Origin: Rhodamnia argentea | Lineage: Eukaryota; Streptophyta; Magnoliopsida; Myrtales; Myrtaceae | Length of the DNA: 64,000 bases | NCBI RefSeq assembly: GCF_020921035.1 | Contig: NC_063155.1 | Span: forward strand, 17,751,311-17,815,310 | Reading direction: 5' to 3' | Part shown: positions 20,951 through 63,167 of the stretch, one piece after another | How positions within the stretch are numbered: position 1 is the stretch's first letter | How the letters are laid out: each line of letters opens with the position of its first letter | The notes under the pieces: generated by a model | Database searches by the model: none | The model's input: only the letters and a program-made list of their open reading frames with translations | What the model was told of the DNA's origin: nothing | Made by a program: the position numbers and the translations under genes

Positions 20951-20995
20951 CGAGATTCTTTCTTCTAACCCCTTTACTGTATCATTTCTGAATCG

Positions 20996-31141: not shown

Positions 31142-32755
31142 TGACGCACTGCATTTAAGAGCTCCTTTTTGAGCTTCCGGTATGGGAGAGCGGGAGGTGC
31201 GCGAGCGATGTCTTATCCGTCGGTTTCTCACGCGCCTATAATTTCTTCGCAATTTTGCATATTTAATTTCTTCACTTTGCGAAATTTTGAATTGTTAAAA
31301 CTTCTAAAATAACTTGTTTTGTCAAAACATTCCGAAAAAGAAAAGGTTATAATGTGTTTTTCTTCTAGGCATATTCATTTTCTCGTTAGCAATTTGAAGT
31401 GACCTTCAAATAAAGATTTGAAGTTGATATTGTTTCAAATAAAGACATAAAATATTCTTATTTTTTTCCAAATAAGAACCGGAATTAGATTTTGTTTCGA
31501 AGGTCACTGGGAAGGCCTTGCCCACAGCCGGCAAGGGCTTGCAAGCCCTCGCCCAATAACTAGTGAGGGTCACCTGGCCCTTGCTTTCCCGAAGCAAGGA
31601 AAAAAAGTAGAAATGAGAAAAAAGAAACAAAAAAGAATAATTTAGAATTAGAATTGGAATTGTCTCCGGAGGAAAACGTCCTTTACCGGTCCTAATATTC
31701 AGCTGGTCGACGTTAGGCCCTTATTTCAAACTGTTATGGCTAGTTCATGTCCTTGTTTGATACTAATATGGCCACTTTGAGCTTTCATATAAAACAAAAT
31801 CTACTTTAAGCTCTTATTTGAAAAAATAAGCGCACTTCAGCCCTTTACGTAAAATTTTCCTTTAAAGCGACCAAGTTTCACCCATCACATAATTCCAAAA
31901 GCCAATAAAACTTCTTTGACCCCCTCTTTATTTTCCAATTTTATTTTCATAAATTAATTTCTTTTTGGAATCGAGCGCTTATTTTATTATTACGCAAGCA
32001 ACTCGGGTTATATCTCCACGTGACAGCCTTTTTATCAGTTGATAAGCGATCTTTTAAATTTTTTAGCTTGACTTAGCATCAATCGATCATAGTTTTTTAT
32101 GCCGAATGCTGGAAAGTGACTCTTCGATTGGAATTATATACTTTTTCAAGTGTCGAAGCCCGTATAAGTTTTAATTATTCCATACCTTCCATATGTTTGT
32201 ATCCGCTTAAGTAATAATAGCCGATCATAGCGAGCCAATTACTCGTCTTAGATTTCGATCTTCCCCAAATCCTTGCCCTTCTTGTCTTGCAATACGAGCT
32301 GCCTTTTCTATTGAGTGCCGCGTGAAATGTAGCAAATCCACTCATTGATTGTCGTGTGTGCAGATTCAAGTTACTCATGTTATTTTATTTTTTCATTTGA
32401 GATGGAAATGCCAAGTAGGATCTACCATTCAGGCATACACAACTCGGACCGGAAGAAGAAGTTGTGCATTACTTGGACCGGACGAACAAAGCTATTGTCC
32501 TTAGTACTAGGTAGGTTGGACCGACATTTAGCCCTTCTTTTTTTGCTTCATCTTTCAAACGCCCTTCGAAAGATTTACCTTGCAAAACCATCTTTACTTA
32601 AGTAGGAACAAATTACCATCCTTGCTTAAACCCTCGAAACCACTCCTCTCTCTCTCTCTCCCTCTCTCATATTCGTTTCGTGTCGGGCCAATTTTAAGAG
32701 CATAAATCTGTATGCCGCCATGATCACCGCATATTTGTCGGGGAGGGGGGTCATC
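31142..32755. other. Intergenic; repeat debris and microsatellite
   Basis: About 31400-31855 is a diverged relative of the MITE at 9249-9650 (phrases such as 'gcccttatttcaaa' and 'gcacttcagccc'). A CT microsatellite lies at 32645-32667. No gene was recognised; the frame at 30878-31144 on the plus strand is the antisense of the neighbouring gene's first exon. Confidence 0.4.
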
Positions 32756-33188
32756 ATTAATATTAGATGCCTTTGTTAATATAAGGTGCATGCACCGTTG
32801 AACCCCGTGCTCACTAAAACTAGTGAATCTCATCGAATTTAAGGACATTGGACGCATGTCGACTAGCACATACTGGATATTAGTTGGATGTTTGAGGATC
32901 TTAATGAATGTCTTACCATAAATTATTTAACCTTACTTTGCTTTTTCGGAAATAGAGTCAGATTTTGCTTTTTAGCGAATAGAATCAACGCAATCCTCCC
33001 ATCTTAATGAGAGTCATTAAAGTCATATTGCTTGCTCTACTTGGATGAGGATTTACTTGCCCTGATTAGGAGAGATTTTCTTTTAGAGCTTTGATTGCTA
33101 ATATGCGAAAATGGGTATATAATGGGCCACCCCCTCTACGACAACATTCCATAAATTTTACTTCTTTCTTCCAAGGAAGGTCATAGAC
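32756..33188 (+). repeat. Repeated inhibitor-gene promoter unit (copy 1)
   Basis: A segment beginning near 'aggtgcatgcaccgttgaa' and running to the inhibitor start codon recurs at about 41090-41498 (plus), 56299-56655 (plus) and 47511-47880 (minus). Shared phrases are 'gtgaatctcatcgaattta-aggacattgg' and 'ttgctctacttagatgagg'. Its presence ahead of each inhibitor copy shows the genes were duplicated with their promoters. Confidence 0.7.
33116..33122 (+). promoter_or_regulatory. TATA box of inhibitor copy 1
   Basis: 'tatataa' lies 73 bp upstream of the ATG at 33189, inside a conserved 'gcgaaaatgggta' context shared with the other copies. Confidence 0.55.
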
Positions 33189-33634
33189 ATGGGGGATCTG
33201 ACCAAACAACCTTATCCACCTTGCGTTGCTGGTGAATACTGTGATGGTAAGCCTCAAAAGGGTCATGTTCCTTTGATTTTTCTGTTTCTACCTTACGATA
33301 TTGTTAATTTACACCAACTTCTATTTCGTGTTATGAGCCACTAGTCATTTGGACTCTTGAGCATAGGAAATCTAGTAGTGTGCGTGGATGATGAGGTATG
33401 CAATACTAGTCGAATATGACAATATAATATGAGATTGAGGTCAACAAATGATTGATTGCATATGCAGTGAAAGGAGTCCGCCTCCAGTTGCCTGAGTTGG
33501 TGGGACAAAATGGAGAGAAAGCGAAGGCGGTGATTGAGAAGGACAACCCGTACGTGACACCGTCTACAAGGGTAGCATCAAATCCGGCGAGCAAGTTACC
33601 CTCAAAACATTGGAGTTATGAACCCACATCGTAG
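33189..33634 (+). pseudogene. Potato-type-I protease inhibitor, truncated and fused to inverted subtilase DNA
   Basis: Exon 1 33189-33246 (MGDLTKQPYPPC...) and exon 2 from 33468 (VKGVRLQLPELVGQNGEKAK, then AVIEKDNPYVT) match the intact copies at 41.5 and 47.0 kb. The match stops at about 33556, right before the reactive-site loop. From there the DNA is the reverse complement of the subtilase pseudogene to its right, adding about 22 unrelated residues before the stop at 33632-33634. Spliced, it would be a 74-residue chimera that lacks the inhibitory loop and the C-terminal RVxVWID strand. It should be inactive as an inhibitor. The junction sits at a shared 'gtgac' word. Confidence 0.8.
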
Positions 33635-34383
33635 ATTGCCAGATGAGCATATGGAGCCATGCCAACTGTTGTACCTTCAGCCATCCCAAGCAGATTAGCA
33701 TGTATCACAGAAGCACCAGCCGCCATACTGGCAGTGTGAGTGCCGTGCCCAAAATGGTCCGTCGGTGGCCTGGTCATATTTTTCTTTGCTGAACTGTTGA
33801 AGGTCCTTGCGCCGATCAACTTGTTATTACATTGGGAAGGCATGAAATCACACCTCTCCTTCCATTTAGCTGCTGGAGGCAGCATTCTAGCTCCACTGAA
33901 TGAAGGGTGATCAGGTGTTACTCCAGAATCCATCACGCCAATGATAATTCCCTTCGCCATAGTGGAGCTATTGAAAGATCCCTAATTCAGTGGTAAACCC
34001 AGGAACGGGGGGCTGTGTGTTGTTTGGAGGTGATATACTTGTTCCAGGTGAGCCGCCACAAATCCGGGCTCCTGCTGTATCATAGTGACTTCATCCGGAG
34101 TCAGCCTCACGGCGAATCTAGTCATCACATTCCGGTAAGAGTAAAGCACGCATTGCTGGTTCTCTAATGCCGTAGATTCTAGGGGCAAAAACGAACGGTA
34201 CTAGGACTCGGGATCTCCCAACTCAGAAGGGTCATGGCTATCGAGGGGACTGACCTATACAATGTAGGTTCGCAAGTCGCTGCTCTCCAATTGAGTTGGA
34301 GATGACAGGCCATCGGGAAGAGAGAACTTGGGGTGGACAATAGAAAACAAAACAATTAGGCAGAGGAGATGAATGAACGCCAT
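33557..34383 (-). pseudogene. Subtilase pseudogene, N-terminal half
   Basis: Reading down from an ATG at 34383, the frame matches the intact subtilase at 43.7 kb from signal peptide (MAFIHLLCLIVLFS) through propeptide, the Asp box (IIIGVMDSGVTPDHPSFSG) and the His box (FGHGTHTASMAAG) to CFEGNLLAGFDATLVDGV. There the match ends abruptly at about 33557. At least four in-frame stops occur, for example within the propeptide and after FLGLPLN. The promoter is also duplicated (a TATA-containing block at about 34445-34465 resembles that of the intact gene). The catalytic Ser half is absent here. Confidence 0.88.
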
Positions 34384-34499
34384 AGTTGGTCTTAGTCTTG
34401 AATGCGGATTCAAAGTGTTGGTAATGGCCTGGTTTGTGATCCGCGACTAATTCTATTTATACAGAAGCCGGAATGGAGATATGATCAGCTTGTGCATAT

Positions 34500-35575
34500 C
34501 ACTATTGGGTAGAAGTGTCCATATAGGTCTTTGATCCACTTTTTAACCGACTTTTATTTATTTAGATCAAATATGGGTTCCACAAATTAAAAAAAAAAAA
34601 TGGGTCAAATACGAATCTAGGCTTATAAATCTTATTCAAATACGGGTTTTAATCCAACCCATATTCGGCCCATTTTCGACCCATGACCTATATTTTTGCA
34701 GGGCCTAATTCCATGAAAAATCCTAAACTTCAAATTCAATTCCAATTTTATCCAAAACTTTTTTTTATCTCAAGAAAAACCTTCAGCTTTTATTCAAGTA
34801 CCAAATCTGCCAGCCATTAACATGCTATCAAAATTGTCGTTTAAGTGCCATTTCACACTTCAAAAAAGGAAAACCAAATTACCGTTTAAATGCCACGTCA
34901 CATGTCAAAAAAAAAAAAGGAAACTGACGGAGAAAAAATGAAATTACTGTTCACTGTGTTCAGCCTCTTCTCTCCTTGGAGTCTCATTACTGTGCCCGCC
35001 GTTGCCCTCACAACGCTGCAGTAGCCATGGCCGCTCAAGCTTCAGGCTGGCACGGCGGCAATGGCAGCTGAAGTTTTGAGCCACAACGCCGCGACCTCCG
35101 AGTGCGACGGTCTCGACCACCCTGACGACCGCAAGCTTCAAATTAATTTTTGGTTTGTTTCAATAACCTCAAGGCTCTCTTCCAATCATCGCCCTTCCAT
35201 CTCTCCCCGTGCTCGAACCCATTTCTGTTTGCAGTACCTCAACAAATCACTAGTATTTCTAATAAATCTCATGGACAAGTGATTCCTTTGGCTTGTTTTG
35301 ATTTTTGTTGCGAAAGAATCAACTTTGACTTTTCGACATTTCTCTACTTGCAATGCCACCAGAGGTCACGTGCAGTTGTTGAAGCTCCGCCGTCATCGCA
35401 GAACGCTGAAGGTTGCTCTGTTTCGCCCTGCTTTACTATCAAAAGAGCCTAACGTGCTCTGCGCTCATTCAGTTCTCTTTCGCCGGAGCCCAACACCAAG
35501 GATGACCCTGAACCTTAGCTTCTAGTTTGAGCGATGTCCATAGTCAACGCCTCTATGCTTTGCCGATTTTGTTCG
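34500..35575. other. Intergenic; 'gggtcaaatatgggt' repeat and unknown GC-rich piece
   Basis: 34540-34690 has low-complexity 'gggtcaaatacg/cccatattcgg' phrases that recur inverted at 36660-36840, so the two may be ends of one composite element around the TRIM. 34940-35520 is GC-richer and lightly coding-like, but the frames are broken and no family was recognised. Confidence 0.35.
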
Positions 35576-36510
35576 TGTAACATCCCCATAGAGAAGGGGG
35601 TGTGCATGGCTCTTTGTCCCACATTGCTTAGGGAGAAGTTCTTGGGATGGTTTATATGTGCTGGGTCCTCCTTCTAAACTTGCAAGACGCGTTTTTTGGA
35701 GGCTATATGGGTGACCCTCGAAGAAACAAAATCGTGAGGAGTTGCGAGCATTGTGCCGCACTCCAAAGCGGACAGTATCTTACAAGTGGTGTAGCATGTG
35801 TGGACCGCAACGGGCACTCCAAAGCGGACAATATCTTACAAGTGGTGTAGCATGTGTGGACCGCAACAGGCGCTCGCCGGTGCTGCTAAGGGCACAACGG
35901 TTACAAGTGGTGTAGCATGTGTGGACCGCAACGGGCGCTCACGGGTGCTGCTACAACAGGCGCTCGCGGGTGCCGCTAAGGGCACAACAGTTACAAGTGG
36001 TGTAGCATGTGTGGACCGCAACGGGCGCTCGCTGGTGCTGCTAAGGGCACAACAGGGACACTGTGCGGCTAAAAGGGGGAGTATGTAACATCCCCAAAGA
36101 GAAGGGGTGTGCATGACTCTTTGTCCTACATTGCTTAGGGTTTTCCGGGGTACTTGCAGTGGAGGTGCGGTGTGCCCAAGCTGTTGCGGTTGGTATCAGA
36201 GCCAACTCTCGACAGCATGTGTGGACCGCACCGGGCGCTTGCTGGTGCTACTAAGGGCACATCGGGGACACTGTGCGGCTAAAAGGGGGAGTATGTAACA
36301 TCCCCAAAGAGAAGGGGTGTGCATGACTCTTTGTCCTACATTGCTTAGGGAGAAGGTCTTGGGATGGTTTATATGTGTTGGGTCTTCCTCCTAAACTTGG
36401 AAGACGCGTTTTTTGGGGACCGTATGGGCGGCCCTCGGAGAAACAAAACCGTGAGGAGTTGGTGAGCCTTGTTCTGCACTCCAAAGCGGACAATATCTTG
36501 CAAGTGGTGC
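35576..36510 (+). mobile_element. Nested TRIM-type LTR retroelement
   Basis: Three LTR-like copies begin 'tgtaacatccccaaagagaag' at 35576, 36084 and 36294. The first and third match for about 216 bp and include 'tttgtcc-acattgcttaggg'. Between the second and third lie a primer binding site 'tggtatcagagcc' (36191-36203, complementary to initiator tRNA-Met), a short internal part, and a polypurine tract 'aaaagggggag' directly before 36294. The same polypurine tract precedes 36084. No gag or pol is present, which defines a TRIM. The short second LTR (about 105 bp) and the repeated internal part suggest recombination or a nested insertion. Confidence 0.8.
35778..36060 (+). repeat. Irregular tandem repeats inside the TRIM
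   Basis: The phrase 'acaagtggtgtagcatgtgt' starts at 35782, 35838, 35903 and 35993 (spacing 56, 65 and 90 bp), each followed by 'ggaccgcaac-ggcgctc' and mostly 'gctgctaagggcacaac'. It is a local expansion of LTR-end plus internal sequence. Confidence 0.75.
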
Positions 36511-37250
36511 GGTAGAGGCATGGTGAGCGGGCCATGTTGGTGGTTGTGGGCGGGCGGACGAAGGCGGTGGGTGGGCCACGGTGGCAACGGCGAGTGGTCG
36601 GCGAAACAATTTTTACATTTTTTAATTTTGATGAAACAAATATTTTGTAATTAGGTTAAATATATAAGTATTTAAATAATATGGATCGAATCGGGTCGGG
36701 TATAGGTTGGATATGGGTTGGGTCGCGTATGGGTCATAAAATTTGTTTTGTATGAAAATGGGTCAAAAAGGGTTAAATGGATCAATATGGATCAAACCAT
36801 ATTCGACCGAATCCAAACCCGACCCGATCCACCCATTTGACACCTCTATTATCGTGTCAGCCATGAGTATTACAACATCTTGGCCGGTCCCATCAAATAA
36901 CTTGTTTCAAGTGGCTTCTATATATCTAGATCCACAAGTTGCTTCAAGAGCATTATCGTAACGAAGGAGTTGCAGCGACGCATGAAAGATTTACTTTTAA
37001 TAGGGTGATTTTAATTCTCCGAGTTTTCATACTCATCACCGTAGTTTGCATATGGTAAAGGTCATTGCATCGATGAGTATATGGGATAGTCGAACCGTCG
37101 TATTACTTGTGGCTTTTGAACCATTAAGTAAAATGTCCTGAAAGACCGGTAAAGATTAATTAAAGTGAGGATTATCAATTCTCGCTTGTTGTTAGCTAAT
37201 CCCTGTACAAGTTAGAGTACTCACTTGACATTTTTCTAATGAGATCGGAA
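36511..37250. other. Intergenic
   Basis: A G-rich patch follows the TRIM, then 'atatgggttgggtcg' low-complexity DNA (36660-36840). No gene was recognised. Confidence 0.35.
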
Positions 37251-37259
37251 AACACATTC

Positions 37260-38605
37260 TCAATACAAAGTTTGTAAAATTTGCAGATGATGCACATGAG
37301 CTAGCAACTGTATTTCCGAAACCATATGGAAATACAAGAAAAAAATGCAAAAATACCCTTTACAACACGCGTAAGTTTTGACCCAAAAAAAACACGCATG
37401 GTAGGGTTTCTTATGCATTTTTCCAACCCTAAGAACTTCAAACATGTAATATGGACACACCACAATGTAGAAGGGCATGATACGAACACAATGCCCCCGA
37501 CCACGCCGTGATCGGAGGCCTGACGCTCCCTCACGCGTCGCCTAAATGTTCGGTGCGTAAGGAGCACACGCACACGTGCAATGTTTGTGCGCGTCCTATA
37601 TAAATCGGTCAAATCGGTTTCACTGTTGACTAGTCAGACCGGTTTGAATGATGACCGGTCGAACCGATCAATGGGTCAACCACCGGGTCAGGTCACGGAT
37701 CGTCGAATTGGTCCACGAGTCGGGTCAAGCCTAGGTCAAACTCGGATTGCGAGGATGACGTCAGCACAACGGTCCTGTCAATAGGCGAATGGCACCCACA
37801 TGCAACCATGCTTGCGGAGCGTGTGGGCGCGTGCGGTGACTTCTGGCAGCCATTGGTGGCCAGCAACCACTCAAAACGCTTATCTCTTCATGCCCTTTCT
37901 GTGTGATCAAATCTTAATTTCACCAAACCAAAATGCAAAAATAGGCCTAAATAGAAACGATTGTCGAAGGTCATCGTGCGCAGCCACCCCCGTAGCACGT
38001 GTAGCCCCGTGCGGTGGTTTTCGGCATCCGCCGGATGCATACGACCACTCATTTTTCTCGTATCGAAGAGAAGAATCAGAATATGTAATCAGAAATAAAT
38101 TTCATTGTACGAAAGCATTTGAAATAGATCGAAACAAATCAAAACAGAATGGTTTCTATCCTTGGTTAGGTGGCTCTAATACCAAATGTAAGACCACAAA
38201 ATTGTGATATGTGTGGGATGGCCATAATCAAAACTAGAAACATACATGCCATACGTAAAAGGATTAGTAAACATGCCTGGTTTGGAATCCATGTTGATGC
38301 GTAATGTTAACAATTCTCGAGACCAAGTCTTCTCCTCTATTCATTTTGATTTGTTGCTGGCCAATGAGAGAGTCACCACAGAATGAAGGGGTGCATTCTG
38401 AAAATTTCTGATTCCAAATGGCTAGAGGAGGGACTTATGTCTTTTATAGAGGTATCGACACATACTCTCTCATCATGGGTCATGCATCTTCGGCCTACAC
38501 TATGCCAGCCCATATTAACATATATTAAGAGTACATATCATACTTTATTAGACCAATCCATATATTAGTATTAATTAATATAGACCACATTATGATAATT
38601 CTAGC
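37260..38605 (-). mobile_element. LTR retroelement fragment (minus strand)
   Basis: On the minus strand 'acatttggtattagagcc' at about 38171-38188 resembles a primer binding site for initiator tRNA-Met. The roughly 410 bp to its right (to 38605) would be the 5' LTR, with a 'tataaaagac' box near 38440-38450, and the DNA to its left the untranslated leader. No gag-pol frame is present. The right edge coincides with the start of the subtilase fragment at 38608. The call is tentative. Confidence 0.45.
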
Positions 38606-38607
38606 AT

Positions 38608-39236
38608 CCATATGCTCATCCGGCAATCTAAGATGTTTGTTACGCATTATATTGTTTTGAGGGTGACTTCCTCACCGGATTTGATGCTGCCCTCACGGAT
38701 GGTGTCGACGTGCTTTCACTCTCGCTCGTCAACCCCTCCCTTCCACTCCATATGGACTGCATGGTTGTGGCCACTTTTACAGCCATTCAAAGGGGCATTT
38801 TCATCGGCTCCACCACTGGGAGCTCTGGTCCTTACTCAGTCATAGTATCCAATGTGGCTTCGTGCATGCTCACCATAGGGGCAAGCAACATTGATAGGAA
38901 CATCCTCTCCAACGTAAAACTCGGCAATAGAGCAGAGTACGAAGGTGAGACAATGTATCGACCCTCCTTTCCTTCAACTTTATTGCCATTGGTGTATCCT
39001 AGGATTGACGGTACATAAGGGACGAAACATTACGAAGAGGCAGCATTGAGAACCAGCGAAGTGAAAGGGAAGATTGTCGTGTGTGGATATGGGGGATGGA
39101 ACCAAGATATAGAGGTGAAAAGAGCCGAAGGAGCCGCTATGATTTCGATTAACCCAAAATTGGTTGGATTCACTATTGTGGCCAATGTTTTTGTCCTTCC
39201 CACCTCTCAAGTCAACTACTTCACAGGTAAGTATTG
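38608..39236 (+). pseudogene. Subtilase pseudogene, middle part
   Basis: The match to the intact subtilase starts at PYAHLAI (about 38608; a frameshift is needed early) and runs through GFDAALTDGVDVLSLSLV, SNVASCMLTIGASNIDRNIL and LPTSQVNYFTG to about 39232. A stop (taa) follows YPRIDG. It covers the region after the His box up to the end of the PA-like insert; the Ser box and fibronectin-like end are absent. The end at 39236 is directly followed by 'tgacacctaaattttgg', the start of an LTR-like sequence. Confidence 0.85.
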
Positions 39237-41090
39237 ACACCTAAATTTTGGCTATTCTCTTTAGTCATGAATTTTTGCATAAAAATTAGGGACTAACTTT
39301 AGTCCCTAGAAAAAAATATTCAAATCATTTTCATATAGTCTAGTTTAATTTAGACTAGGACTAGTAGCGGACATGCTTAAATGTTCAATTCAGAACCTAT
39401 TTAATTTTGCTCAAGATTGATGCAGGAAATTGTTGAAAGAAAGCAACCATAGGAAAAAGAACATTGAAAATCTGGTGAGATGGAGCATATCTTCGATATT
39501 CAAAATCAAAGAGAATCCGGTTGGAGAAATATCGGCAAAAGATCAATACTCGTGAATGGGCCAACGGTGATGAACGTAGACATGTTCGCGGCAATATGAG
39601 CGAAACATAATAGATTGTATTGAAAGAGCTCAAGTGGTCTTTGTCGAAATTCTCGGAAAATCTCCTCGGATCAAAACAGCTCCAACAGCTCCGTACTTTA
39701 AAAAAAAGATACGAAGAGAGATTTGATTTGTTTTGAGGAAGCTCAAGTCGTCTCGGTCTATAAAAGGCATTCACGTTCTTCTTCATGGGGGGCTCGACAA
39801 CCGCACAAGCACAAAGAGAGAACGGCGAGGGGTCTCGTCTAGGGTGAATAGGAAAAAAGCCGTGATGGTACAAAGAGAGCAGAAAAGTGAGGGGGAAGAC
39901 TTCCTTGAAAAAAAGAGAGAAGTGTCAGTGGGGAGGAGTCGTCCAAGCGAGGTTTAGAGGGAAAGCTGGACGGTAATAGAAGGAGCAGAAAAAGTGAAGC
40001 CATGTTCAGAGAGTTTTTTATCTTAGAGGAAAAAGAAAAGAAAGCCCGAGAGGAGTCAGCCAATTGTTTTCTCTATAAACACCTCTATGGCTTCAACAGG
40101 ATATGCATTTAACGCCAAAAAGGATCCATGCTGATAAAACCACGAAGCCTCTCGATTTCGCCCTGTACCGCCTCGTACCGTCGCTACTTCTCTTACCCGG
40201 GCTTGTTCGAGTCAACAACCTAGCAGATCATTCATTGCGACCATTCAAGCGCCGAGCTCCCTATCCGAACCGGTCCAATCCGCAAGTCCACCATGAGCAA
40301 GCCAAATTGAGTTGCGGTTCCAAAGCCGTGCGAATCCTCACGAAAAATCAGTTCCATCCGCGACGTATTGGGTTTAAGTGAGAGGCCACAAATCTGAAAT
40401 TGTTTCGGATCGGGTAAAAATCCAATTCATTCATATTTTATTTCTCGTTTTTGAATTGATGCAAATATTGTGTTGATATTTCAGTTAGGCAAACTTTATC
40501 TGTTGATATCGCAATATATATTAGTTGCCTATTTGGATTTTTTGACATCTTCGGCATATTTTTAGATTAGAAAACCAATTCGAGTTATGGGGTGATTCCC
40601 TACCAACAACGTGCAAATTCGGACTAATCTCGACCCCGAGATTTGTCTCGATGGCACGGGGATCGAGATATCTAATCTTAACCACCAGATTTGATTCCTT
40701 GATCCAATCCGTTATCTAATTCGAATCGGAAGATATTTTCATAAATGATCATGCATGATTTGATTTGTTACAAAAAAAATAAAAAAAAAAAAAAATCCAT
40801 TCAAAACACCAAAAATATCTCATTCATGTAGATTGCATATAGTTTAGAACATTCTATTCATGTAGATTGAACACATTCATTTTACATATGCACGTTGTTT
40901 AGGCCTAGTCGCATAATCACTATGTCATTTTCATGTCGCATTGATTAGTCATGTCATATATTTTGCCACGTCATTAAAGTTTGACATATCCTATGGTTCG
41001 GCATGTCATTTTGTCATATTATTTTTACGTGTCGTATTATTCGTTATGTCATAAACTTGATAAGTCATTAATGTCATGTCAAACGTAGCT
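39236..41090. mobile_element. Probable LTR or retroelement-derived DNA
   Basis: Starts 'tgacacctaaattttggc', a beginning I associate with long LTRs of Tat/Ogre-type Ty3 elements, and interrupts the subtilase frame. The long non-coding stretch has LTR-like features (a 'tctataaacacctctatggc' promoter block at about 40071-40091). No gag-pol was found. The right end is not defined; 40790-41090 is AT-rich with 'atgtcat' repeats. Confidence 0.4.
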
Positions 41091-41498
41091 AGGACATCAT
41101 TAAAGTTAGTGAATATCATCGAGTTTAACGACATTGGACACATGCCGACTACCGCATACTAGAAATTAGTGGGATGTTTGTGGAATTTTAAAGGATGTCT
41201 TACCATAAACTATTTGATCTTACTTTGCTTTTTCAAAAACAGAATCGGATTTTGCTTGTTAGAAGACAGCATCAGCGCAATCCTCCCCTCTTAATGAGAG
41301 TCATTAAAGCCATATGACTTGCTCTACTTAGACGAGGATTTACTTACCGGATTACGAGGGATTTTCTTTTAGAGCTCTCGATAGCAGTCAAAGCATTTAC
41401 TGCATACCATATGCGAAAATGGGTACATAAAGTGGTGGCCCTATGACAAAGTTCCACAAAATTTTACTTCTTAGTTTCTTACAAGGAAGATCAGAGAC
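41091..41498 (+). repeat. Repeated inhibitor-gene promoter unit (copy 2)
   Basis: Matches 32780-33188 and 56320-56655. The TATA position here reads 'gggtacataaag' (about 41423) where other copies have 'gggtatataa', so the box is altered by one base. Confidence 0.65.
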
Positions 41499-41981
41499 AT
41501 GGCAGATATAATCAAACACCCTTATCCACCTTGTGATAATCGCGAATGCTCTTTTGGTACGCCCCAAAAGGCTTATGTTCCTTTTATTTTTCTGTTTCTA
41601 GCTTACAATGTTGTTAATTTACACCGACCTTTTCAGTGTTATGAGCCACTAGTCATTTGGGCTCTTCAGCATAGGAAATCTAGTAGTATGCATGGATGAT
41701 GAGGAATGCAATATCAGTTGAATATGATAACATAATATGAGATTGATGTCGATAAACGATTGATTGCATATGCAGGGAAAGGAGATCGCTTTAAGTGGCC
41801 TGAGTTGGTGGGGCAAAATGGGGAGAAAGCGAAGGCAGTGATTGAGAAGGACAACCCGTACGTGACGGTCATACTGGCGATAGTGGGAAAAGATGTTGGG
41901 CTTACCGATCATTGCTGTAACCGGGTTTATGTTTGGATCGATGAAAAGGGCAATGTCATTGCACCGCCTACGGTTGGATGA
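41499..41981 (+). CDS. Potato-type-I serine protease inhibitor (2 exons, 87 aa)
   Basis: Exon 1 41499-41556 and exon 2 41776-41981 join in phase (donor ttttg|gtac, acceptor tgcag|gg) to give 87 residues. The core FKWPELVGQNGEKAKAVIEK is the start of the potato-I fold (WPELVG.NG...A...IE.DNP). It is followed by VTVILAIVGKD, the reactive loop DVGLTDHCCNRVYVWID and the final PPTVG; family members run about 65-90 residues. By alignment with the eglin/barley CI-2 pattern the P1 residue is near the Thr of GLTD. The protein would bind a subtilisin- or chymotrypsin-like protease as a tight substrate mimic. No signal peptide is present, as in many members. It sits about 1.7 kb from an intact subtilase on the same strand. 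Confidence 0.9.
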
Positions 41982-42230
41982 GCAGGGAAACTGCGATCAT
42001 GAATAAAGTAGCTTATGAAGCTATCCGATATAATGAATAAAATTCATTTGAGGCGAGCCTATAAAATACTGGGTCTGGTTTTGGGAGAGGATGATTCTAC
42101 TCCGCACGGTTGATGAATATGTGTGATTTTTCCGTGTGAAATCCCATCATGTATGCGCCAGTTGCTATCAAAGACGTTAAATCAAATTACTAAAGAGCCC
42201 GCGGTTAGTACGGAGTACAAAGATCTTCTC
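41982..42230 (+). other. 3' flank of the inhibitor gene
   Basis: Holds 'gaataaagtagc' and 'gaataaaattc' near 42001-42043, likely poly-A signals. The equivalent, inverted, DNA is found beside the 47.0-kb and 58.5-kb copies. Confidence 0.45.
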
Positions 42231-42246
42231 TCTTTCGATGTTATTC

Positions 42247-43406
42247 TCAATCGCGGAGAGAAGTCGGTAGCTGCATCCGCCTCAGTTTTTGCTGATGTAT
42301 GAGCTTCAGAGAGCTTGAACTGAAATGATCTGATTCTCGCTGACTAGAGATGATCTTATTCCTGGGTCTTACACTGGTCTTCTTTGGCACGACATGCGCT
42401 TTGTCTATGCTTCTGTGCCTTATTAGAGGACTGATCCATGAGCGTCGCTTTGCTAGTAACATGGAGAGGCTGGGAGCTTTTGCTCCTGAGATAGTTGCTA
42501 GACCTGACCAACGCAATGGAGCCTGATGACTTAGGAGGGTTGAGCAGCCTTGATTTCGCCAACTTCATGCTGTTTGACTAACAGGCAATGGAGGCTTTTC
42601 AGGCACATCACCATAACTTCGCAGAGCTGTTAAATGGCGAACCATGTTGTTCTCCAGACTAACCGCGCGATTGTTATGATCAGCTGATTGGCCTATAGAC
42701 TTCAGTTTCTCCACCATAGCATTCACATTTCGTGTTGGGACTAGGTTTTTTTCTTTGTTTCAGATTGTCATACTCCCCTGTTTTATGAAGGACTATGTTA
42801 GCCAGCCAGTCCTAGGCCAAGTCAAGTGTCGATTATGGAGCAACCGAAGACATGTCTGAAGACTGACATTAACCTAGCTATTGCTTGCAATTCTTCTGGA
42901 TCCCAACGTGAACATTACTACCCCATCTTTTGTCGTTTGCAACTCTTTTTGATCTGTCTTAGTTGAGACTCGAAATTGAAGGTGGAAAAAGTTGCAGTAA
43001 GAGTTAAAACAGAAGAAGAATACAATACGACAAGGTGAAAAAAGCTACGTTACCCTGAGCTATATCAAGTGTAGAGGATTTGCTTTTAAGCTGTGACTAA
43101 AATTTGTTTCCTACATGATTTTATGGTTCAACAACCTCCAGAATTGACCCATAAACTCGACATTTTAAGCACAATCCTAAATTACAGCTTCTCCAAGGAA
43201 TATGTTTCACATTAAAGGGATCAAGGCTTGGAATTTCTCCTAAGCACTTCAAAGCGACGTCGATTCGGCATGTGGATGTATCCATGGCTTGCCATTCCTT
43301 TCTGAGTTTTCTTATTCATTTTAAGCATTGATTCCTGGGCACCCATATACTCATCGACACAACCACCTCCACCATACGCAAACTGTCGTGATGAGTAGGA
43401 AAACAC
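42247..43406 (-). pseudogene. Unrecognised gene remnant (segment B)
   Basis: Two protein-like minus-strand pieces. First, 43395-43224 reads CVDEYMGAQESMLKMNKKTQ, then KGMASHGYIHMPNRRRFEVL, then a stop. Second, about 42731-42565 reads NAMVEKLKSIGQSADHNNRA, then VSLENNMVRHLTALRSYGDV, then PEKPPLPVSQTA and a stop. The second looks like a short coiled coil. I do not recognise the family. An inverted copy of the first piece and its flank lies at 61090-61660, with the frame conserved over more than 40 residues. A shorter degraded piece of the flank lies at 48120-48230. Whether this was one gene or two is unclear. Confidence 0.35.
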
Positions 43407-43616
43407 TGAGAATCAAATCATCCTATTAAGAGGAGATCTTTCATGCGTTGCGGCAACTCCTACGTTCTGATAATGCTCTCGAAGCGACTCGTAGTATCAG
43501 ATATAGAGGCCACTCGAAGAAAGTTATTCTTGAGGGACAGACCAAGATGATGTATTACTCACGGCTGACCTGATAGTGATATGCACAGGCTGGCCAAATC
43601 TCCATCCTGGCTTCTG

Positions 43617-43624
43617 TATAAATA
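43617..43624 (+). promoter_or_regulatory. TATA box of the subtilase gene
   Basis: 'tataaata' lies 82 bp upstream of the chosen ATG at 43699. The same promoter block is recognisable, inverted, near 34450 upstream of the pseudogene copy. Confidence 0.65.
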
Positions 43625-43698
43625 GAGTAAGTCGGTCGCCGAAAGCAAACCAGGCCATTCCCAGCACTTTGAATCCGCACTCTGCACTAAGATCAACT

Positions 43699-45924
43699 AT
43701 GGGTTTCATTCATCTCCTCTGCCTCGTTGTTTGGTTTTCCAGTGTCCATCCCAAGTTCTCTCTTCCCGATGGCCTGTCATCTCCGACTCAATTGGAGAGG
43801 ACCTACATTGTCCAGGTCAGTCCCCCCGACGGCCACCACCCTTCTGAGTTGGGAGATGTCGAGTCCTGGTACCGCTCGTTTTTGCCCACGGACTCTATGG
43901 CCTCAAAGAACCAGCAGCGCGTGCTTCATTCTTATCGGAATGTGATGACTGGTTTCGCCGTAAGGCTGACTCCGGATGAAGTCACTGCGATGCGGCAAAA
44001 GCCCGGATTCGTGGCAGCTCGCCCAGAGCAAGTATATCCCCTGCAAACGACACACAGCCCCCAGTTCTTGGGCTTACCGCTGCTTCAGGGATCTTTCAAT
44101 GGCTCAACAATGGGGAAGGGAATTATCATTGGCGTGATGGATACGGGAGTGACACCTGATCACCCTTCATTCAGCGGAGCCGGAATGCCGCCTCCACCGG
44201 CCAAATGGAAGGGGAGGTGCGATTTCATGCCATGGCAATGTAACAACAAATTAATCGGTGCCAGGACCTTCAACAGTGCGGCCAAGAAAAATGTGACCAC
44301 GCCACCAACGGACAATATGGGGCACGGCACTCACACGGCCAGTACGGCAGCTGGTGCTTCTGTGCCCCATGCCAATATGCTTGGGATGGCTGAAGGCACG
44401 GCTGTTGGCGTGGCTCCATATGCTCATCTGGCAATATACCATGTTTGTTCCACATTGTCTTGTTTTGAGGGTGACTTACTCGCCGGATTTGATGCTGCCC
44501 TTGTAGACGGTGTCGACGTGCTCTCACTCTCGCTCGCTGGTCTCTCCCTTCCATTCCATATGGATGGCATGGCTATAGCCACTTTTGCAGCCATTCAGAG
44601 GGGCATCTTCGTCAGCTCTGCGGCTGGAAACTCTGGTCCTTCCTCAGGCACAGTATCCAACATGGCTCCGTGGGTGCTCACCGTAGGGGCAAGCAGCATC
44701 GATAGGAACTTCCTCTCCAACGTGAAACTCGGCAACGGAGTGGAGTACGAAGGTGAGACGGTATATCAACCCTCCTTTCCTTCAACTTTATTGCCACTGG
44801 TGTATCCTGGGATTGACGATACACGAGGATCGAAACTTTGTGAAGAGGGAGCGTTGAGAACCAGCGAAGTGAAAGGAAAGGTTGTCGTGTGTGAATTTGG
44901 GGGATGGAACCCAGACATAGAGGTGAAAAGAGCTGGGGGAGCCGCTATGATTTCAATTAACTCAGGATTGGATGGATTCACTAATTTGGCCAATGCTTAT
45001 GTCCTTCCCACCTCTCAAGTCAGCTACTTCACAGGTGAGGACATCAAGGACTACATTAATTCGACCAGAGCTCCTACTGCCACGATCGTGTTCAAAGGTA
45101 CCACATATGGAAACCCGACTGCTCCGGTGGTTGCTGCCTTCTCTTCAAGAGGCCCGAGCTCGATTAGCCCCGGAATTCTGAAGCCGGACATTGTTGGTCC
45201 TGGTTTGAACATATTGGCAGCATGGCCGTTTCCCGTCAGAAATGATGCGAAAGCCAAGCATTACTTCCACATCCGTTCTGGCACTTCCATGTCTTGCCCT
45301 CACCTCAGTGGCATTGCAGCTTTGATAAAGGCCGTTCATCCAGGCTGGTCTCCGGCGGCTATTAAATCCGCTATCATGACTTCGGCTAAGAAGCTAAACA
45401 TTGAGCAAAACCCGATCCTGGATGAAAGACTTGAACCTGCGGATGTCTTTGCCGTCGGAGCAGGCCATGTCGATCCGGTAAAGGCCATTGACCCTGGATT
45501 GGTTTACGACATTCAACCCAAAGGTTACATTCCTTATCTCTGTGGGCTGGGATACACGGACAAGCAGGTAGCTGCAATTGCTCAGAAACCAGTCAAATGC
45601 TCATCTAGCATTCCCGAGGGAGAGCTGAACTACCCTTCATTTTCAGTTGCCCTCGGACCTCCGCAGACATTTACGAGGAAGGTGACTAATGTTGGCACGG
45701 GAAATTCGTCTTATGCTGTCGTGGTTGTTCCCCCACAAGGCGTGCATATCAGTGTGAAGCCGGCTATACTAAGCTTCTCAAAGTTGAACCAGAAAGCAAC
45801 GTATTCTGTCACATTCAGGCGCGAAAGTTGCGCGGGCATGACCGGTAATTACTCCCAAGGATATTTGAGGTGGGATTCCAAGAAGTACTCTGTTAGGAGT
45901 CCCATTTCAGTAATGTTCGACTAA
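43699..45924 (+). CDS. Subtilisin-like serine protease (SBT1-type, intronless, 741 aa)
   Basis: A single open frame of 741 codons. The ATG at 43699 is chosen because it starts a signal peptide (MGFIHLLCLVVWFSSVHPKF) and follows a TATA box at normal distance; the frame is open further upstream but without such features. Order of parts: I9 propeptide (about 34-115, TYIVQV to QPLQTT-like end), S8 catalytic domain with Asp148 (IGVMDTG), His209 (GHGTHTAS), the oxyanion region (AAGNSGP), a PA-type insert (about 350-470), Ser530 (GTSMSCPH) and a fibronectin-III-like end (FTRKVTNVG...). Plant SBT1 enzymes are secreted to the apoplast and act in defence, development and wall processing; the substrate cannot be inferred. 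Two broken paralogues lie 5-10 kb to the left, and potato-I inhibitor genes lie on both sides. AATAAA lies at 45941. Confidence 0.95.
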   Translation: MGFIHLLCLVVWFSSVHPKFSLPDGLSSPTQLERTYIVQVSPPDGHHPSELGDVESWYRSFLPTDSMASKNQQRVLHSYRNVMTGFAVRLTPDEVTAMRQKPGFVAARPEQVYPLQTTHSPQFLGLPLLQGSFNGSTMGKGIIIGVMDTGVTPDHPSFSGAGMPPPPAKWKGRCDFMPWQCNNKLIGARTFNSAAKKNVTTPPTDNMGHGTHTASTAAGASVPHANMLGMAEGTAVGVAPYAHLAIYHVCSTLSCFEGDLLAGFDAALVDGVDVLSLSLAGLSLPFHMDGMAIATFAAIQRGIFVSSAAGNSGPSSGTVSNMAPWVLTVGASSIDRNFLSNVKLGNGVEYEGETVYQPSFPSTLLPLVYPGIDDTRGSKLCEEGALRTSEVKGKVVVCEFGGWNPDIEVKRAGGAAMISINSGLDGFTNLANAYVLPTSQVSYFTGEDIKDYINSTRAPTATIVFKGTTYGNPTAPVVAAFSSRGPSSISPGILKPDIVGPGLNILAAWPFPVRNDAKAKHYFHIRSGTSMSCPHLSGIAALIKAVHPGWSPAAIKSAIMTSAKKLNIEQNPILDERLEPADVFAVGAGHVDPVKAIDPGLVYDIQPKGYIPYLCGLGYTDKQVAAIAQKPVKCSSSIPEGELNYPSFSVALGPPQTFTRKVTNVGTGNSSYAVVVVPPQGVHISVKPAILSFSKLNQKATYSVTFRRESCAGMTGNYSQGYLRWDSKKYSVRSPISVMFD

Positions 45925-46099
45925 GAATTTCTAAGAGCAGAATAAAGATATAGAATTGGATTGTAATTTCGTATTACCACGATTCTGTGATTAAAGAAAG
46001 CATAATCGATATGCTCTGATTTCCCTACATCTCCGCAAAAATTGATGAAGTTCTTTTTTGCAAGATTACTACTGCTTATTAGCATACTATAAGACAAGT

Positions 46100-46600
46100 A
46101 CTATAAACTTGTTTTCATGTATCTGACAATCTGAAAAGTAGTGGAACTATCCAACCCCTTTGAGATTTCATCCATGAGGAGGGCCTTTGCTGGTCCTACC
46201 AACATCTCCCCGGCATAGAATTGAGGAAGAACGAAGTCTTTTATGTACTTTTTGATCACGCGATATGAGCGTCGAAGAAAAAGTCTTTCTGGAAACTTAG
46301 GGACAGCCATTATTACCGTATGATAATTGCGGTTACGGCTTACGCACAAGCTTTTGTCGTTGCAAGCACGAACAAAATTTAAAGTAATTAGTCCTTCGAA
46401 CAGGTTCGGAGAAATTAGTTGTTCAATGTCGTCGAAAGACCAATTTCCAAACGAGAATCTACCGTTGGTGCGTCCGGGGTCGTCAGACGCTTTTTCTGTG
46501 TGCCCCCCAGATGTACCCCTTGGCATCTCGTTACCCACCAGAATGTCCGCACAAATATCCAGTCTGAGTATCTGCAATAAGAGTACACGCGAATTCGGCT
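46100..46600 (-). pseudogene. PDR-type ABC transporter (ABCG) fragment
   Basis: The minus strand reads [18 protein letters not shown], then TSGG, then a frame break with remains of 'QKKRLTT'. After about 220 bp of foreign sequence it continues [20 protein letters not shown] and [12 protein letters not shown]. These are the signature motif (SGGQ) and Walker B ([18 protein letters not shown]) of the first nucleotide-binding domain of full-size ABCG transporters. In a real gene the two parts are adjacent, so a later insertion has split them. Nothing else of the 1,400-residue protein is nearby. Confidence 0.85.
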
Positions 46601-46639
46601 TTCAGAAGCAGTGGTGGGTAGACAAGTGAACTCGATCAC

Positions 46640-47008
46640 ATAATCAAAATTAACAGGTTGTGCCTTCGGTAAATTTGTCTATGTCATTCGATAAGATGTA
46701 TTTTTCTGCTCACTTCTTCTAAATTGATTAATTTTAGGAGATGCATGATGCTTGTCTTAAATAGACCTTATGCAAGTAATCATCCTCAAATAACTGGACA
46801 TCGGTCTTCTTATTAAAACGTGGGCTCTTTAGTAACTTGACCGAGAAACCACACACGTTGAGCAAGCGTACAAAGCAAAACCAAACCTCTCTCAAAACCA
46901 GACCCAGTGAGTAAAATAGGATCGCCTCAAAAATGATTATTTGTTTTATTTATTATATCGAATAGCTTCATAAGCTACTTTATTCGAGATCGAGATCACA
47001 GTTTCCGC
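46640..47008 (-). repeat. 3' flank of inhibitor copy 3 (also at 58160-58560)
   Basis: This stretch and 58160-58560 match in the same orientation ('aacaggttgtgcctt' and 'attcgagatcgagatca' blocks), which shows that the 3' flank was duplicated with the inhibitor gene. Confidence 0.65.
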
Positions 47009-47510
47009 TTATCCAACTATTGGCATTTGAAAGACATTGCTCTTTTCATCGATCCAAACATGTACTCGGTTGCAGCAAAAATCGGCTGGCACAACTGCTT
47101 TTCCCGCTGGTACCAGTACGACTGTCACGTACGCATTGTCCTTCTCAATCACTGCCTTCGCTTTCTCTCCATTTTGTCCCACCAACTCAGGCCACCGGAC
47201 GCGTATTGGTTCCCCTGCATTGGCGATCAATCATTCATTGACCTCATTCTCAGATTGAGTCATCATATTTGGCTTATATCGCATGCCTCATCATCCATGC
47301 ACACCACTAATATTTCACTGCTCAAACGTCCAAATGACTTGTGGCTCATGATACGGAAAGGGAAGATGCAAATTAACAATATCGCAAGCTAGAAACAGAA
47401 AAATAAGAGGAACATAAGCCTTGTGGGGGCGTACCAAAACAGCATTCGGCGCGATCGCATCCCGGCACAGAAACACAAGGTGGATAAGGGACTTTGCTTG
47501 TATTTCCCAT
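47009..47510 (-). CDS. Potato-type-I serine protease inhibitor (2 exons, 93 aa)
   Basis: Minus-strand exons 47510-47435 (MGNTSKVPYPPC, then VPGCDRAECCFG) and 47214-47009 (EPIRVRWPELVGQNGEKAK, then the VTVVLVPAGKAVV loop, PADFCCNRVHVWID and PIVG) join in phase to 93 residues. It is the same family and the same intron position as the 41.5-kb gene, but exon 1 is six codons longer, as in the broken 56.7-kb copy, making those two the closer pair. By alignment with the eglin pattern the P1 residue is near the Ala of PAD, unlike the Thr of the 41.5-kb copy, so the two may prefer different proteases. It lies tail-to-tail with the subtilase, 1.1 kb away. Confidence 0.9.
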
Positions 47511-47575
47511 GCTTGTGATCTCCTTGCAAGAGAGTAAGAAGCAAATTATATTGAATTTTGTTATAGGGCCAACCC

Positions 47576-47583
47576 TTTATATA
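47576..47583 (-). promoter_or_regulatory. TATA box of inhibitor copy 3
   Basis: 'tatataaa' on the minus strand, 66 bp upstream of the ATG at 47510, inside the conserved 'cgaaaatgggtatataaag' context. Of the inhibitor copies with this region, it is the best match to a plant TATA box. Confidence 0.65.
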
Positions 47584-49611
47584 CCCATTTTCGCAATCGA
47601 CTCCTATCATGATCTCTGAAAGAAAATCCCTCATAATCAACTAAATAGGGCAAGTAAATCCTCATCTAAGTAGAGCAAGTAATCAGGCTAAAAAGGCATC
47701 TCATTAAGAAGGGAGGGATTAGGCTAAAAAGGCATCTCATGTGCTAGTCGACGCATGTCCAATGTCCTCAAACTCGATGAGATTAACTAATTTTAACGAG
47801 GACGACATTCGTACGGTAAGCATATAGATTTATTATGCTCATAAAAGTGCCGTAATACGAAACTAATATGAGAGGGGATCACCATCAAGAGAAAACTCAG
47901 TTCAGAGTCAAGAAGATATCAATTGATGCTTTAAATGCTTATGCCTAGTCATGAATATCGTGGTCGTGTCTGGGGAAGGAAAAACTGAATGAAATTCGCA
48001 ACCAAAAGTGAACATTACCCAAGAATTGACGCTTAATGAATAATAAAACTCAGAACAAATGGCAAAGACCGTAATAATCGGGTTGGACAGCTCGGCAAGC
48101 CAAATTTAATTCGGAGAAAATTTCTTCGGAAGATGTAAGTTAGGATTGTGTTGTATATTGAGTTTACGGGTCAATTCTAGAGGTTGTTGAATCATAAAAT
48201 CATGTTGTAAGGAAATTCTAGGGTGCCGCGGAACCATGGAATTTTATAGAAGTCGGTTCGGTATTTTGTTTGGTCCTAGCGAAATTTTGAAGTTTGTTGT
48301 GCACTGTCGAACCAGATTCAAACTACTGTGTTTAAGGTTAGTTTTCATCTGGCTTCGACCATCTTTTGAGTCGGAGCACGTTCGTGTTCCGAGTAAATCG
48401 AGTTAGCTTTCAAATGACTTAGGACCCACTTGAAACGGGCGTCCGTAGAGTTCAAACAAACCGTTTTGGATTCGGTGCGCGAGCTGCCGCAATACGGTGG
48501 ACGGCGGTAGTTATTTTGCTTTGTGCAAGCTCTCCATGGGCGCAGTGGGGTCATTTTATTATATAATAACCTTGGTTTAGCTGAGTCTTAGTTGAGCTAA
48601 TTTTGTTTCTCACTTAATTGATCGAAATTTGAGTTTTTCCTCTCGAAATAGCATCAACTTTTCGGTTTTGTATTGTGAGGTGAGTAGTGTTTATTTCTTA
48701 TATAATTTGGATACTCCCGTCTCGAAAATAATAGGAGACGGACATGCTATAAGCTATCAAAGAGGAATCGCATGGCATGGCATGGCATGGCACGATGGTT
48801 ATTAAAAAGAAAAAAAAAAGGGGCACCGTTTAAAATTTATTTGCTAAGTAAAACAGGATCGGGAAATGAGCTACTACTATTTTGATTATTTCGAAATGAC
48901 GTATCAAAGCATCTCTGAAAAAATTCATGAATTGAATACATGTGAAATTATTTAGGCAATGCTTTATGAAAAAAACTTTCGCTTGATGAAATGAATTGTG
49001 AAAGGCTCTATAGTATTGGTTTGTGAACTTGATTCACAGGATGAGTTAAAAGTCATTTTGTGCTCGTTGTCGGCTATGACCTGTAACACGATCCTAGTAC
49101 CTGCTGTCGCATTCCGATGTATGACCTGACCTCCAACGAGATAAATTGCGGCTAAAGTCACCGAGGGAGAATAGAATCTCGCGTAGGAAAGCGACGCGCG
49201 AGAAACCCTCATCGATGCCTTGCACCCTTCGCGCTCGATTGATTCCCATCGACTGTGTCCCTCGGAGAATAAAAAAATTGGTAAAACCAATACGATTTGA
49301 TGTCAGAAATATGTGATCATGGTCAACTAATTGTATCGCGATGCTAGTGAATATGGGTGTCTAGCTTGTTTAGTACCAAAATTGTGGATTGACTCTGGCT
49401 AGTTGAGTTATTGTCTGATCATTTGCAGCTTATAAGGTAACCTTATATCAATTTTGCGAGTCATGATATTGATACCAAAGTTGCTCCATTATCTGCGACC
49501 ATCTGGCCATTCTGAGCAACAGTCATGGTGCTCTTCTTGAACACCCAATGCAATTGGTGTTCCATGTGTTTCAGCCCTAATATTTTGTTCTCCCTTTTCA
49601 CTTGGCACCAG
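47584..49611. other. Inhibitor promoter unit, then unrecognised DNA
   Basis: 47584-47880 is the inverted promoter unit. 48120-48230 matches the flank of segment B (61286-61370). A (catgg)n pentamer repeat lies at about 48772-48795. The rest, with its short frames (for example 48964-49290), shows no recognisable gene. Confidence 0.4.
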
Positions 49612-54502: not shown

Positions 54503-54533
<31 letters not shown>

Positions 54534-54808
54534 ATGGACGGTGTAATTTGGTATATTAGATGTCTTAATTTTTCTTATTTCCTTGGGAATTCAAGCCATG
54601 AACATATCTCTGGTCATACCAATTGCTTTAAAGTTGACTCTATTGCACGAAAATGAGAAGGTGACAACGCTGGGTGGAGAGTCCATGGGCAAATAATGCA
54701 AAGAAAGGGAATATAACGAGCAAGGTCAAGTTTGAACTTTCCATATTTACAGACACCCTGCAGAATCAGAAGTCAATGTAGAGTTCTATATCATTTATGA
54801 CTGCAATG
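52871..54808. repeat. Left arm of a large inverted repeat
   Basis: This segment, reversed, matches 62051-64000 over its full length: intron 2, exons 1-2 and the promoter of the J-domain gene, and about 1.1 kb of upstream DNA with a (taa)n tract. It stops sharply at 'gactgcaatg' (54808). The left limit is set by the end of the window, so the arm may be longer. Confidence 0.92.
54503..54532. repeat. (taa)n microsatellite
   Basis: About ten TAA units. The other arm of the inverted repeat carries the same site as (tta)n at 62329-62349, with fewer units. Confidence 0.85.
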
Positions 54809-57619: not shown

Positions 57620-59030
57620 AGTGTACAGAGAAAATTCATTTTCCTTGTCGAACGACGAAGAATATTTTCCAGTTCATTTTCAAGTTTCATCCCAACGACG
57701 GAAAATATTATTATATTCCTGGAAAATGACTTTCCGGAAAATATTTTTCTGAAACACTACATTTTCTGTGAAATGAACGGAGCTTTAGCCTTTTCTGTTG
57801 CTCAACCTTTCAAATTCTTTCATAGATTTCCCTCACAAAACCACCTTCTCTGAATAGAAAAAAAATTTCGACCAAAAACAAAAAAAAGAATAGAAAAAAT
57901 TATTATGCTCGCTCAGACCTTTCAAATTCTTTCGTATTAGTTTCGTATTAGGGCGCTTTTATGAGCGTAAATCTATATGCTCACCGCTACTCTGAAGCCA
58001 ACACTTAGGGGAGAGGAAACGGTGCGAGAGTCCACGAGAAGAAGAGATCCCGTTGCCATTGGTGGCCAAAGCGGAGGCATCGGCATCATGGAGGGATGAA
58101 GCTAAAGTTGCGTGGTAAAAGGCCATTTGATAAAAAAAAGTCTCAACAAATAGTAACGGCTAGTAAAAATTAACAAGTTGTGCCTTGGGTAAATTCCTTA
58201 TGTCATTCGATACGATGTATTTTTTCGCTCACTTCCTCTAAAATTGATTACCTCAACTTAGTTTGGGATAATTATGTTGTTGATGTTGATGTTGTTCCTC
58301 TAAAATTGATTAATTTTACGAGATGCATGATGCTTGTTGTCGTAAGTCTGAACCTTATGCAAGTAATTATCCTCAAATAACCGAACATCGGTCTTTCTTA
58401 TTAAAACGTGGGCTCTTTAGTAACTCGACCGAATAATCACACACGTTGAGCAAGCCTACACCGGTAGGACCGTCTCAGAAATGACTATTTATTTTTATTT
58501 CTTGCACCGAATAGCTTCGTAAGCTACTTTATTCGAGATCGAGATCATGGTTTCCATTTATCCAACTATCGGCGTTTGAAAGACATAGCTCTTTTCATCA
58601 ATCCAAACATATACTCGAATAGTTTCTAGTATGTGCTAGCCGGTGCGTGTCCAATGTCCTTAAACTCGATGAGATTCCCAAGTTTAATTGAGGACGGCAT
58701 TCGTGCGGTAAGCATATAGATTTTTGCTCATTAAAGTGCCCCAATACGAAACTAATATGAGAGAGAGGGAGGGACGTGGTTCGAGGGTCCAAGCGAGAAT
58801 AATAACTCTTTTTCTATACAGAGAAGATGGTTTTGCGAGGGAAACGTATAAAAGAATTTGAAAGATCGAGCAAAAAGAAGGGCTGAAGTTCCGTTTCATT
58901 TCGCGGAGAATGAAGCGTTTCTAAAAAAATAACAATATTTTCCAATGTTGATATAAAATCTGAAAAAAAATTGGAAAATATTCTTCGCTGTTGGACAGGA
59001 AAAATCAATTTTCTCGATGCACTTGTTTTG
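57620..59030. repeat. Inverted repeat (about 0.35-kb arms) around an inhibitor remnant
   Basis: 57620-57985 and 58695-59030 are diverged inverted copies ('aaaattcattttccttgtcg', 'ctcacaaaaccaccttctct' and 'gcgtaaatctatatgctcac' phrases). The spacer holds the 3' flank and last codons of an inhibitor copy. Confidence 0.6.
58558..58614 (-). pseudogene. Potato-type-I inhibitor, last 18 codons
   Basis: The minus strand reads VYVWIDEKSYVFQTPIVG and a stop, matching the end of the 47.0-kb gene. The flank 58160-58560 matches 46640-47008. Immediately upstream (58620-58760) is promoter DNA that corresponds to 47735-47880, so the middle (about 675 bp, most of the gene) has been deleted. Confidence 0.8.

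Positions 59031-63136: not shown

Positions 63137-63167
<31 letters not shown>

Follow-up and report, generated by a model that had tools for sequence, protein, structure and literature searches.

In a 64,000-nucleotide window of the Rhodamnia argentea genome (assembly GCF_020921035.1, contig NC_063155.1, positions 17,751,311 to 17,815,310, forward strand), an intact gene for a probably secreted subtilase, here called SBT, is flanked by two intact genes for potato-type-I (potato-I) protease inhibitors, here called A and B. Then, do the protease and its neighbours form a working pair? A preliminary description of this DNA had seen in the locus a possible protease/antiprotease module, in which the inhibitors restrain the subtilase or protect the plant from a related enzyme. 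On our reading, two ordinary, locally duplicating families probably became neighbours here, and the inhibitors would be directed mainly against foreign proteases. Taken singly, the subtilase and the inhibitors each appear to be usual representatives of a large family of plant genes, and a putative role against a related foreign enzyme agrees better with the data than restraint of SBT does. The genes, their domains, loops and copies can be read directly in the window. The central features are as follows (aa, amino acids).

41499..41981, plus strand: inhibitor A, potato-I; exons 41499-41556 and 41776-41981; 87 aa; probable P1 Thr
43342..43698, plus strand: SBT upstream region, with a TATA-like box 82 bp upstream of the ATG; copied upstream of the broken subtilase copy SBT1 (see below)
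43699..45924, plus strand: SBT, an intact subtilase that is probably secreted; single-exon open reading frame (ORF) of 741 aa, with Pfam domains, motifs and matches in PDB
47009..47510, minus strand: inhibitor B, potato-I; exons 47510-47435 and 47214-47009; 93 aa; probable P1 Ala

The subtilase

The subtilase that had been described at 43.7-45.9 kb, between two intact potato-I genes, was confirmed by the ORF, the Pfam domains and the splicing of its neighbours. SBT matches Peptidase_S8 (1.3e-41), the Inhibitor_I9 propeptide (5.2e-12) and fn3_6 (1.8e-28), while a match to the PA insert at residues 366-449 (E 1.2e-4) reaches 22.6 bits, just below the cut-off of 23.9. The catalytic Asp, His and Ser and the oxyanion Asn are kept in the motifs DTG (148), GHGTH (208), GTSM (528) and AGN (309), respectively, and the protein has the features of a plant subtilase (S8A), namely the Asp/His/Ser triad with the oxyanion Asn, an I9 prodomain and an fn3 tail. 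Its N-terminus is hydrophobic (FIHLLCLVV, with the best 9-residue hydropathy of 2.93 at residues 3-11), which is a signal-peptide-like start as judged from hydropathy alone and not by a signal-peptide predictor. A further Pfam match, to TAL_effector, lies under its own cut-off and was taken as chance.

The best PDB matches are 7eox, cucumisin (3vta) and 3i6s, to which SBT aligns over the catalytic domain and the C-terminal part (residues 117-738) and with which it has the prodomain, S8 and fn3 domains in common. Nothing beyond ordinary divergence from them was noticed in a comparison that was not made residue by residue. Inactivity held by the propeptide is a known mechanism in this family, and the domains concerned are observed in SBT. 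SBT would be a secreted subtilase whose I9 propeptide blocks its activity up to maturation in the secretory pathway.

The inhibitors and their reactive loops

In both A and B the spliced frame is open and the splice sites are kept. Their matches to PF00280 (A, 5.3e-21 and 75.5 bits; B, 8.4e-23 and 81.2 bits) are far above the curated cut-off of 24.5, and the solved relatives that they match are potato-I inhibitors such as BWI-1, BGIT, CMTI-V and CI-2. That inhibitors of this family act on subtilisins, as had been stated, agrees with the presence of the CI-2/subtilisin entry 2sni among the matches. In prokaryotes, 175 stretches fitted one of two plant-like peptide patterns, and tblastn, which is insensitive to distant relatives, showed none of them to be related to the inhibitor.

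Which residue is P1 in the solved relatives, and the rules for the loop, we presume from general knowledge of the family. By alignment to these relatives, A would have Thr-Asp at P1-P1' and B would have Ala-Asp, in agreement with the P1 difference noted earlier, and both proteins have the acidic P1' (Asp) and the Arg at P6' of a canonical loop. The WPELVG...RVxVWxDE pattern and the P1' Asp are common to A, B and the family of BWI-1, BGIT, CMTI-V and CI-2 (PF00280, MEROPS I13); the P4' Cys is found as in BWI-1, BGIT and CMTI-V, and B has Val-Pro at P3-P2 as in BWI-1, while A has Gly and Leu at these positions. A and B would be small canonical (substrate-like) inhibitors of proteases that resemble subtilisin, elastase or chymotrypsin, and the exposed loop that carries P1 (Thr or Ala) would occupy the active site of the enzyme.

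Apart from the P1 residue, A and B are set off from these relatives by three features: a longer loop before P1, Cys in place of Arg at P3', and an exon-1 extension with two or four cysteines. Of the 40 PDB sequences that span the loop (44 rows, of which four are fragments), 39 are shorter there than B by one residue, and the exception, 1cis, is a hybrid that differs the other way. Few independent proteins stand behind this count, since 31 of the 39 rows are CI-2 or its variants and the other eight are other inhibitors. The same one-residue excess is found in A against its best rows, 1vbw, 1mit and 7al8; against 3rdy and 2ci2 the length differences are others, because the aligned span extends into the N-terminal part. 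The four alignments of B and the three of A that were inspected place the gap in the loop, ahead of P1. The loop length of the solved potato-I members, a trait of uncertain defining status, is consequently not that of A and B; since the spans of the Pfam match are equal, the extra residue may be widespread among members without a solved structure.

Cys-Cys stands at P3'-P4' in both inhibitors, where BWI-1, BGIT and CMTI-V have Arg-Cys, and exon 1 encodes two cysteines in A and in the broken copy C, and four in B and in the broken copy D. From these residues we infer a second disulfide in A and B, which would tie the N-terminal extension to the loop. Specialists in protease inhibitors may find this lengthened loop with its two cysteines useful. 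It is very unlikely, in our view, that A and B represent a potato-I subfamily with one extra loop residue and two disulfides (from the P3' and P4' Cys to the Cys-rich extension) that acts on the neighbouring subtilase, the pair having been kept since a duplication at a synonymous divergence of ~0.35-0.4.

Unlike SBT, A and B have no signal-peptide-like start by hydropathy: the best 9-residue value within the first 35 residues is -0.09 in A and 0.91 in B. Upstream of the ATG, the frame meets a stop at the 9th codon in A and at the 23rd in B, with no ATG before it, and there is little room for a leader exon because the TATA-like boxes lie only 75 bp (A) and 73 bp (B) before the ATG. Since a signal peptide is lacking, A and B are probably cytosolic, or exported leaderless or on wounding. 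The earlier proposal that they restrain SBT gains no support here, for a leader-like start and an I9 propeptide are present in SBT, and A and B show no such start.

Broken copies and upstream regions

Broken copies of both families had been described around the intact genes, and they are indeed present.

33189..33558, plus strand: inhibitor C, truncated in exon 2 after 91 bases (~30 codons), with exon 1 and the intron kept; PF00280 6.4e-7
33508..34383, minus strand: SBT1, 5' part of a subtilase copy (tblastn); four stops in 272 compared codons
36850..37085, minus strand: far upstream part of SBT1, split from it by the insert 34506-36849
38608..39231, plus strand: SBT2, internal subtilase fragment, residues 240-447; two stops in 208 codons
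56656..56951, plus strand: inhibitor D; exon 1 and intron
58295..58617, minus strand: inhibitor E; 3' flank and the end of exon 2 (19 codons, 58617-58561)

The array thus extends past the interval 33189-47510 first described, to about 58.6 kb; the pieces D and E, as well as a fusion of C with SBT1, had been missed. Exon 2 of D was looked for downstream of it and not found. In the window, two of five inhibitors and one of three subtilases are intact.

At 33556-33558, C runs straight into the antisense of SBT1, tail to tail. The two sides share GAC, because identity to A ends at 33558 and nucleotide identity to SBT begins at 33556 (33552 by blastn), though tblastn reaches 33508. The junction looks as if one deletion broke both genes. 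The 2.3-kb insert in the upstream region of SBT1 contains 56- and 90-bp tandem repeats. We also considered whether SBT1 and SBT2 are the two parts of a single inverted gene; this was rejected as the simplest reading, since their 105-bp overlap is 79% identical, below the identity of either fragment to SBT (84% and 85%).

Both families had been said to be duplicated with their promoters. For the inhibitors this holds, as A, B, C and D can be aligned upstream (146-206 sites per pair), with a TATA-like box 73-76 bp before the ATG that reads TATATAAA in B, TATATAAT in C and TACATAAA in A, and is altered to GTGTAAAG in D. It also holds for SBT1, which retains 357 bp from the region upstream of the subtilase, interrupted by the insert, and it fails for SBT2, which is internal and has no promoter. 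Between SBT and the inhibitors, no upstream match was found in a blastn self-comparison of 30001-50000 against the window (E 1e-10), a search that does not cover short motifs. A promoter common to both families was not seen at that threshold, and the proposed module is not supported on this side. A repeat of ~520 bp, present in opposite orientation at 42843-43358 and 61121-61642 (94% identical), abuts the subtilase promoter, and a related piece lies at 48114-48221.

Duplication history

Self-BLAST and the distances between copies bear out the close linkage and the local duplication of both families. Over the noncoding parts of the inhibitors (upstream region and intron, Kimura two-parameter, K2P), the distances are 0.235 for A-B, 0.162 for A-C, 0.186 for B-D, 0.258 for A-D, 0.296 for B-C and 0.245 for C-D. 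A groups with C and B with D, since these two distances are the smallest. The upstream regions of SBT and SBT1 differ by K 0.215 (0.160-0.278), which sits between the deep (A-B, A-D, C-D, B-C) and the shallow (A-C, B-D) inhibitor distances with overlapping intervals. In addition, an inhibitor and a subtilase converge on each other twice, as SBT/B and as C/SBT1. These patterns are consistent with, and do not prove, a joint duplication of the two genes close to the deep split among the inhibitors; separate events could also account for them, because the K intervals also overlap the shallow splits. At the time of at least some of the duplications, an inhibitor and a subtilase probably already lay side by side, and the linkage would persist by shared ancestry.

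In comparison with SBT, the coding part of SBT1 has dN 0.105 and dS 0.382, with 32, 24 and 61 differences at the three codon positions, and it was therefore probably constrained for much of its history. SBT2, with dN 0.138, dS 0.234 and 28, 29 and 32 differences, probably decayed early.

Could A and B themselves be on the way out, weak or non-inhibitory because of the longer loop and changed contact residues, in a locus that is mostly a graveyard? Most copies of both families are broken (three of five inhibitors, two of three subtilases), the loop has its one-residue insertion, and A has Gly-Leu at P3-P2 and a changed TATA-like box (TACATAAA). However, A and B have kept their frames and splice sites, and outside positions 52-65 they are constrained relative to each other (dN 0.112, dS 0.416). 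We regard such decay as most improbable.

A pair or mere neighbours

If the 20 potato-I genes of tomato, about 80 subtilases and a total of about 34,000 genes are taken as a basis, random placement would give about 0.1 adjacent inhibitor/subtilase pairs per genome, which is a rough figure; by this estimate, a single such pair is slightly out of the ordinary for any given genome, and it is to be expected when many genomes are scanned. The further copies are not independent evidence for linkage, because they come from few founding events. Local potato-I duplication is common to this locus and to tomato, where 20 members include the tandem array SlPI32-SlPI45 (PMC7017114). In the text of that paper, the word subtilase occurs once, in the reference list. 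Among open-licence papers, we found no report of a linked plant subtilase/potato-I pair. A paper on Striga deals with subtilases and inhibitors and describes inhibitor domains associated with the proteases themselves, and 12 of 15 places in its text have nothing on potato-I genes linked to subtilases (PMC9795911).

The divergence between A and B leans towards changing targets, as for inhibitors of foreign proteases, with only two sequences compared. The two proteins differ most in three stretches, one of which is the reactive loop (weak statistics). In the loop P6-P3', dN is 0.40 and dS 0.30, compared with 0.13 and 0.33 in the rest of W27-G87, and the density of nonsynonymous changes is higher in the loop (one-sided Fisher p 0.04). 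A and B would act mainly on the proteases of pests or pathogens; comparable roles are reported for StPin1A, which gives protection from insects, and for barley CI-2, which inhibits proteases of Fusarium culmorum (PMC6471620).

Several observations weigh against this reading. P6-P3' does not change significantly faster than the intron (p 0.22), and a strong claim of positive selection was dropped for this reason; the p 0.02 of P9-P2' against the intron belongs to a stretch picked after seeing the data, and against all synonymous sites it becomes 0.22. Two 9-codon stretches, from residues 20-21 and 77-78, vary more than the loop. The 22 codons preceding the ATG of B encode a hydrophobic run, FNIICFLLSC, with no ATG. 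The two convergent inhibitor/subtilase neighbours could also come from a unit under selection for linkage. Arabidopsis UPI, which we take to be a potato-I inhibitor, is a further case. It occurs in the secretome of Arabidopsis roots with Trichoderma (PMC8268252), and an inhibitor of the potato-I type can therefore be extracellular. Finally, NbPot1, a plant I13 (potato-I) inhibitor given a signal peptide in N. benthamiana, raised three co-expressed proteins about 2- to 18-fold (PMC6131417), and since their levels rose it probably acts on some plant protease.

Some of these points would suit a dedicated module, in which A, B or both are cognate inhibitors of SBT, or guard the cytosol against its leakage, and the linkage is kept as imbalance is costly. 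It would account for the linkage with its repeated convergent neighbours, for the old-looking neighbourhood with a constrained SBT1 (dN 0.105, dS 0.382), for the binding of subtilisins by the family (2sni), and for the effect of NbPot1 on plant proteolysis. Against it stand the different predicted compartments and SBT's own propeptide, the lack of common upstream sequence, the diverged loops and the lack of a precedent among open-licence papers; moreover, NbPot1 with its signal peptide left serine hydrolase profiles unchanged, extracellular ones included (PMC6131417). On balance we hold the dedicated module to be decidedly unlikely. A conserved linked pair, if true, would be a ready test case for the control of apoplastic subtilases in plants.

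To our knowledge, few endogenous inhibitors of plant subtilases have been described. A propeptide-like one, SPI-1, was reportedly presented by Hohl in 2017 and is of a different sequence family from potato-I. Protease and inhibitor do lie side by side as a demonstrated cognate pair in the staphopain/staphostatin operons of staphylococci. Those are bacterial operons, whereas the genes here have separate promoters and products with different predicted compartments.

An apoplastic SBT of the immune type and anti-pest inhibitors could also form a linked defence cluster, co-regulated and induced together on wounding or infection without acting on each other. Defence roles are reported for the Hevea subtilase HbSPA (PMC5411025) and for plant inhibitors (PMC6471620), while blastn found no upstream sequence common to the two families; this arrangement appears unlikely to us. 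We return to two families that became neighbours. The targets, the compartments, the order of events and the lack of a dedicated pairing between SBT and the inhibitors are what we infer for them. As it stands, the locus would illustrate how local duplication and decay place unrelated families side by side, and it shows that linkage alone says little about function.

Other features of the window

Between SBT and B, a 141-aa ORF (46101-46526) has no Pfam match at E 0.001, and by eye its end resembles what we take to be a motif of PDR-type ABC transporters. On the plus strand, pieces of a TIR-NLR resistance gene (TIR, NB-ARC and LRR by Pfam) lie at 5355-11965 and those of a cytochrome P450 gene at 16183-18410, the latter recognized by Pfam at 17040-17504 and 17955-18410 and by eye alone in the piece from 16183. 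A reverse-transcriptase zinc-binding domain and a Myb-like fragment (Pfam) are found at 20406-22331 on the minus strand. An inverted repeat of 2 kb (52872-54808 and 62051-64000, the latter running to the window end; 89.9% identical) is probably a mobile element, and an 86-bp unit is repeated three times, with 98% matches, at 55184-55442.

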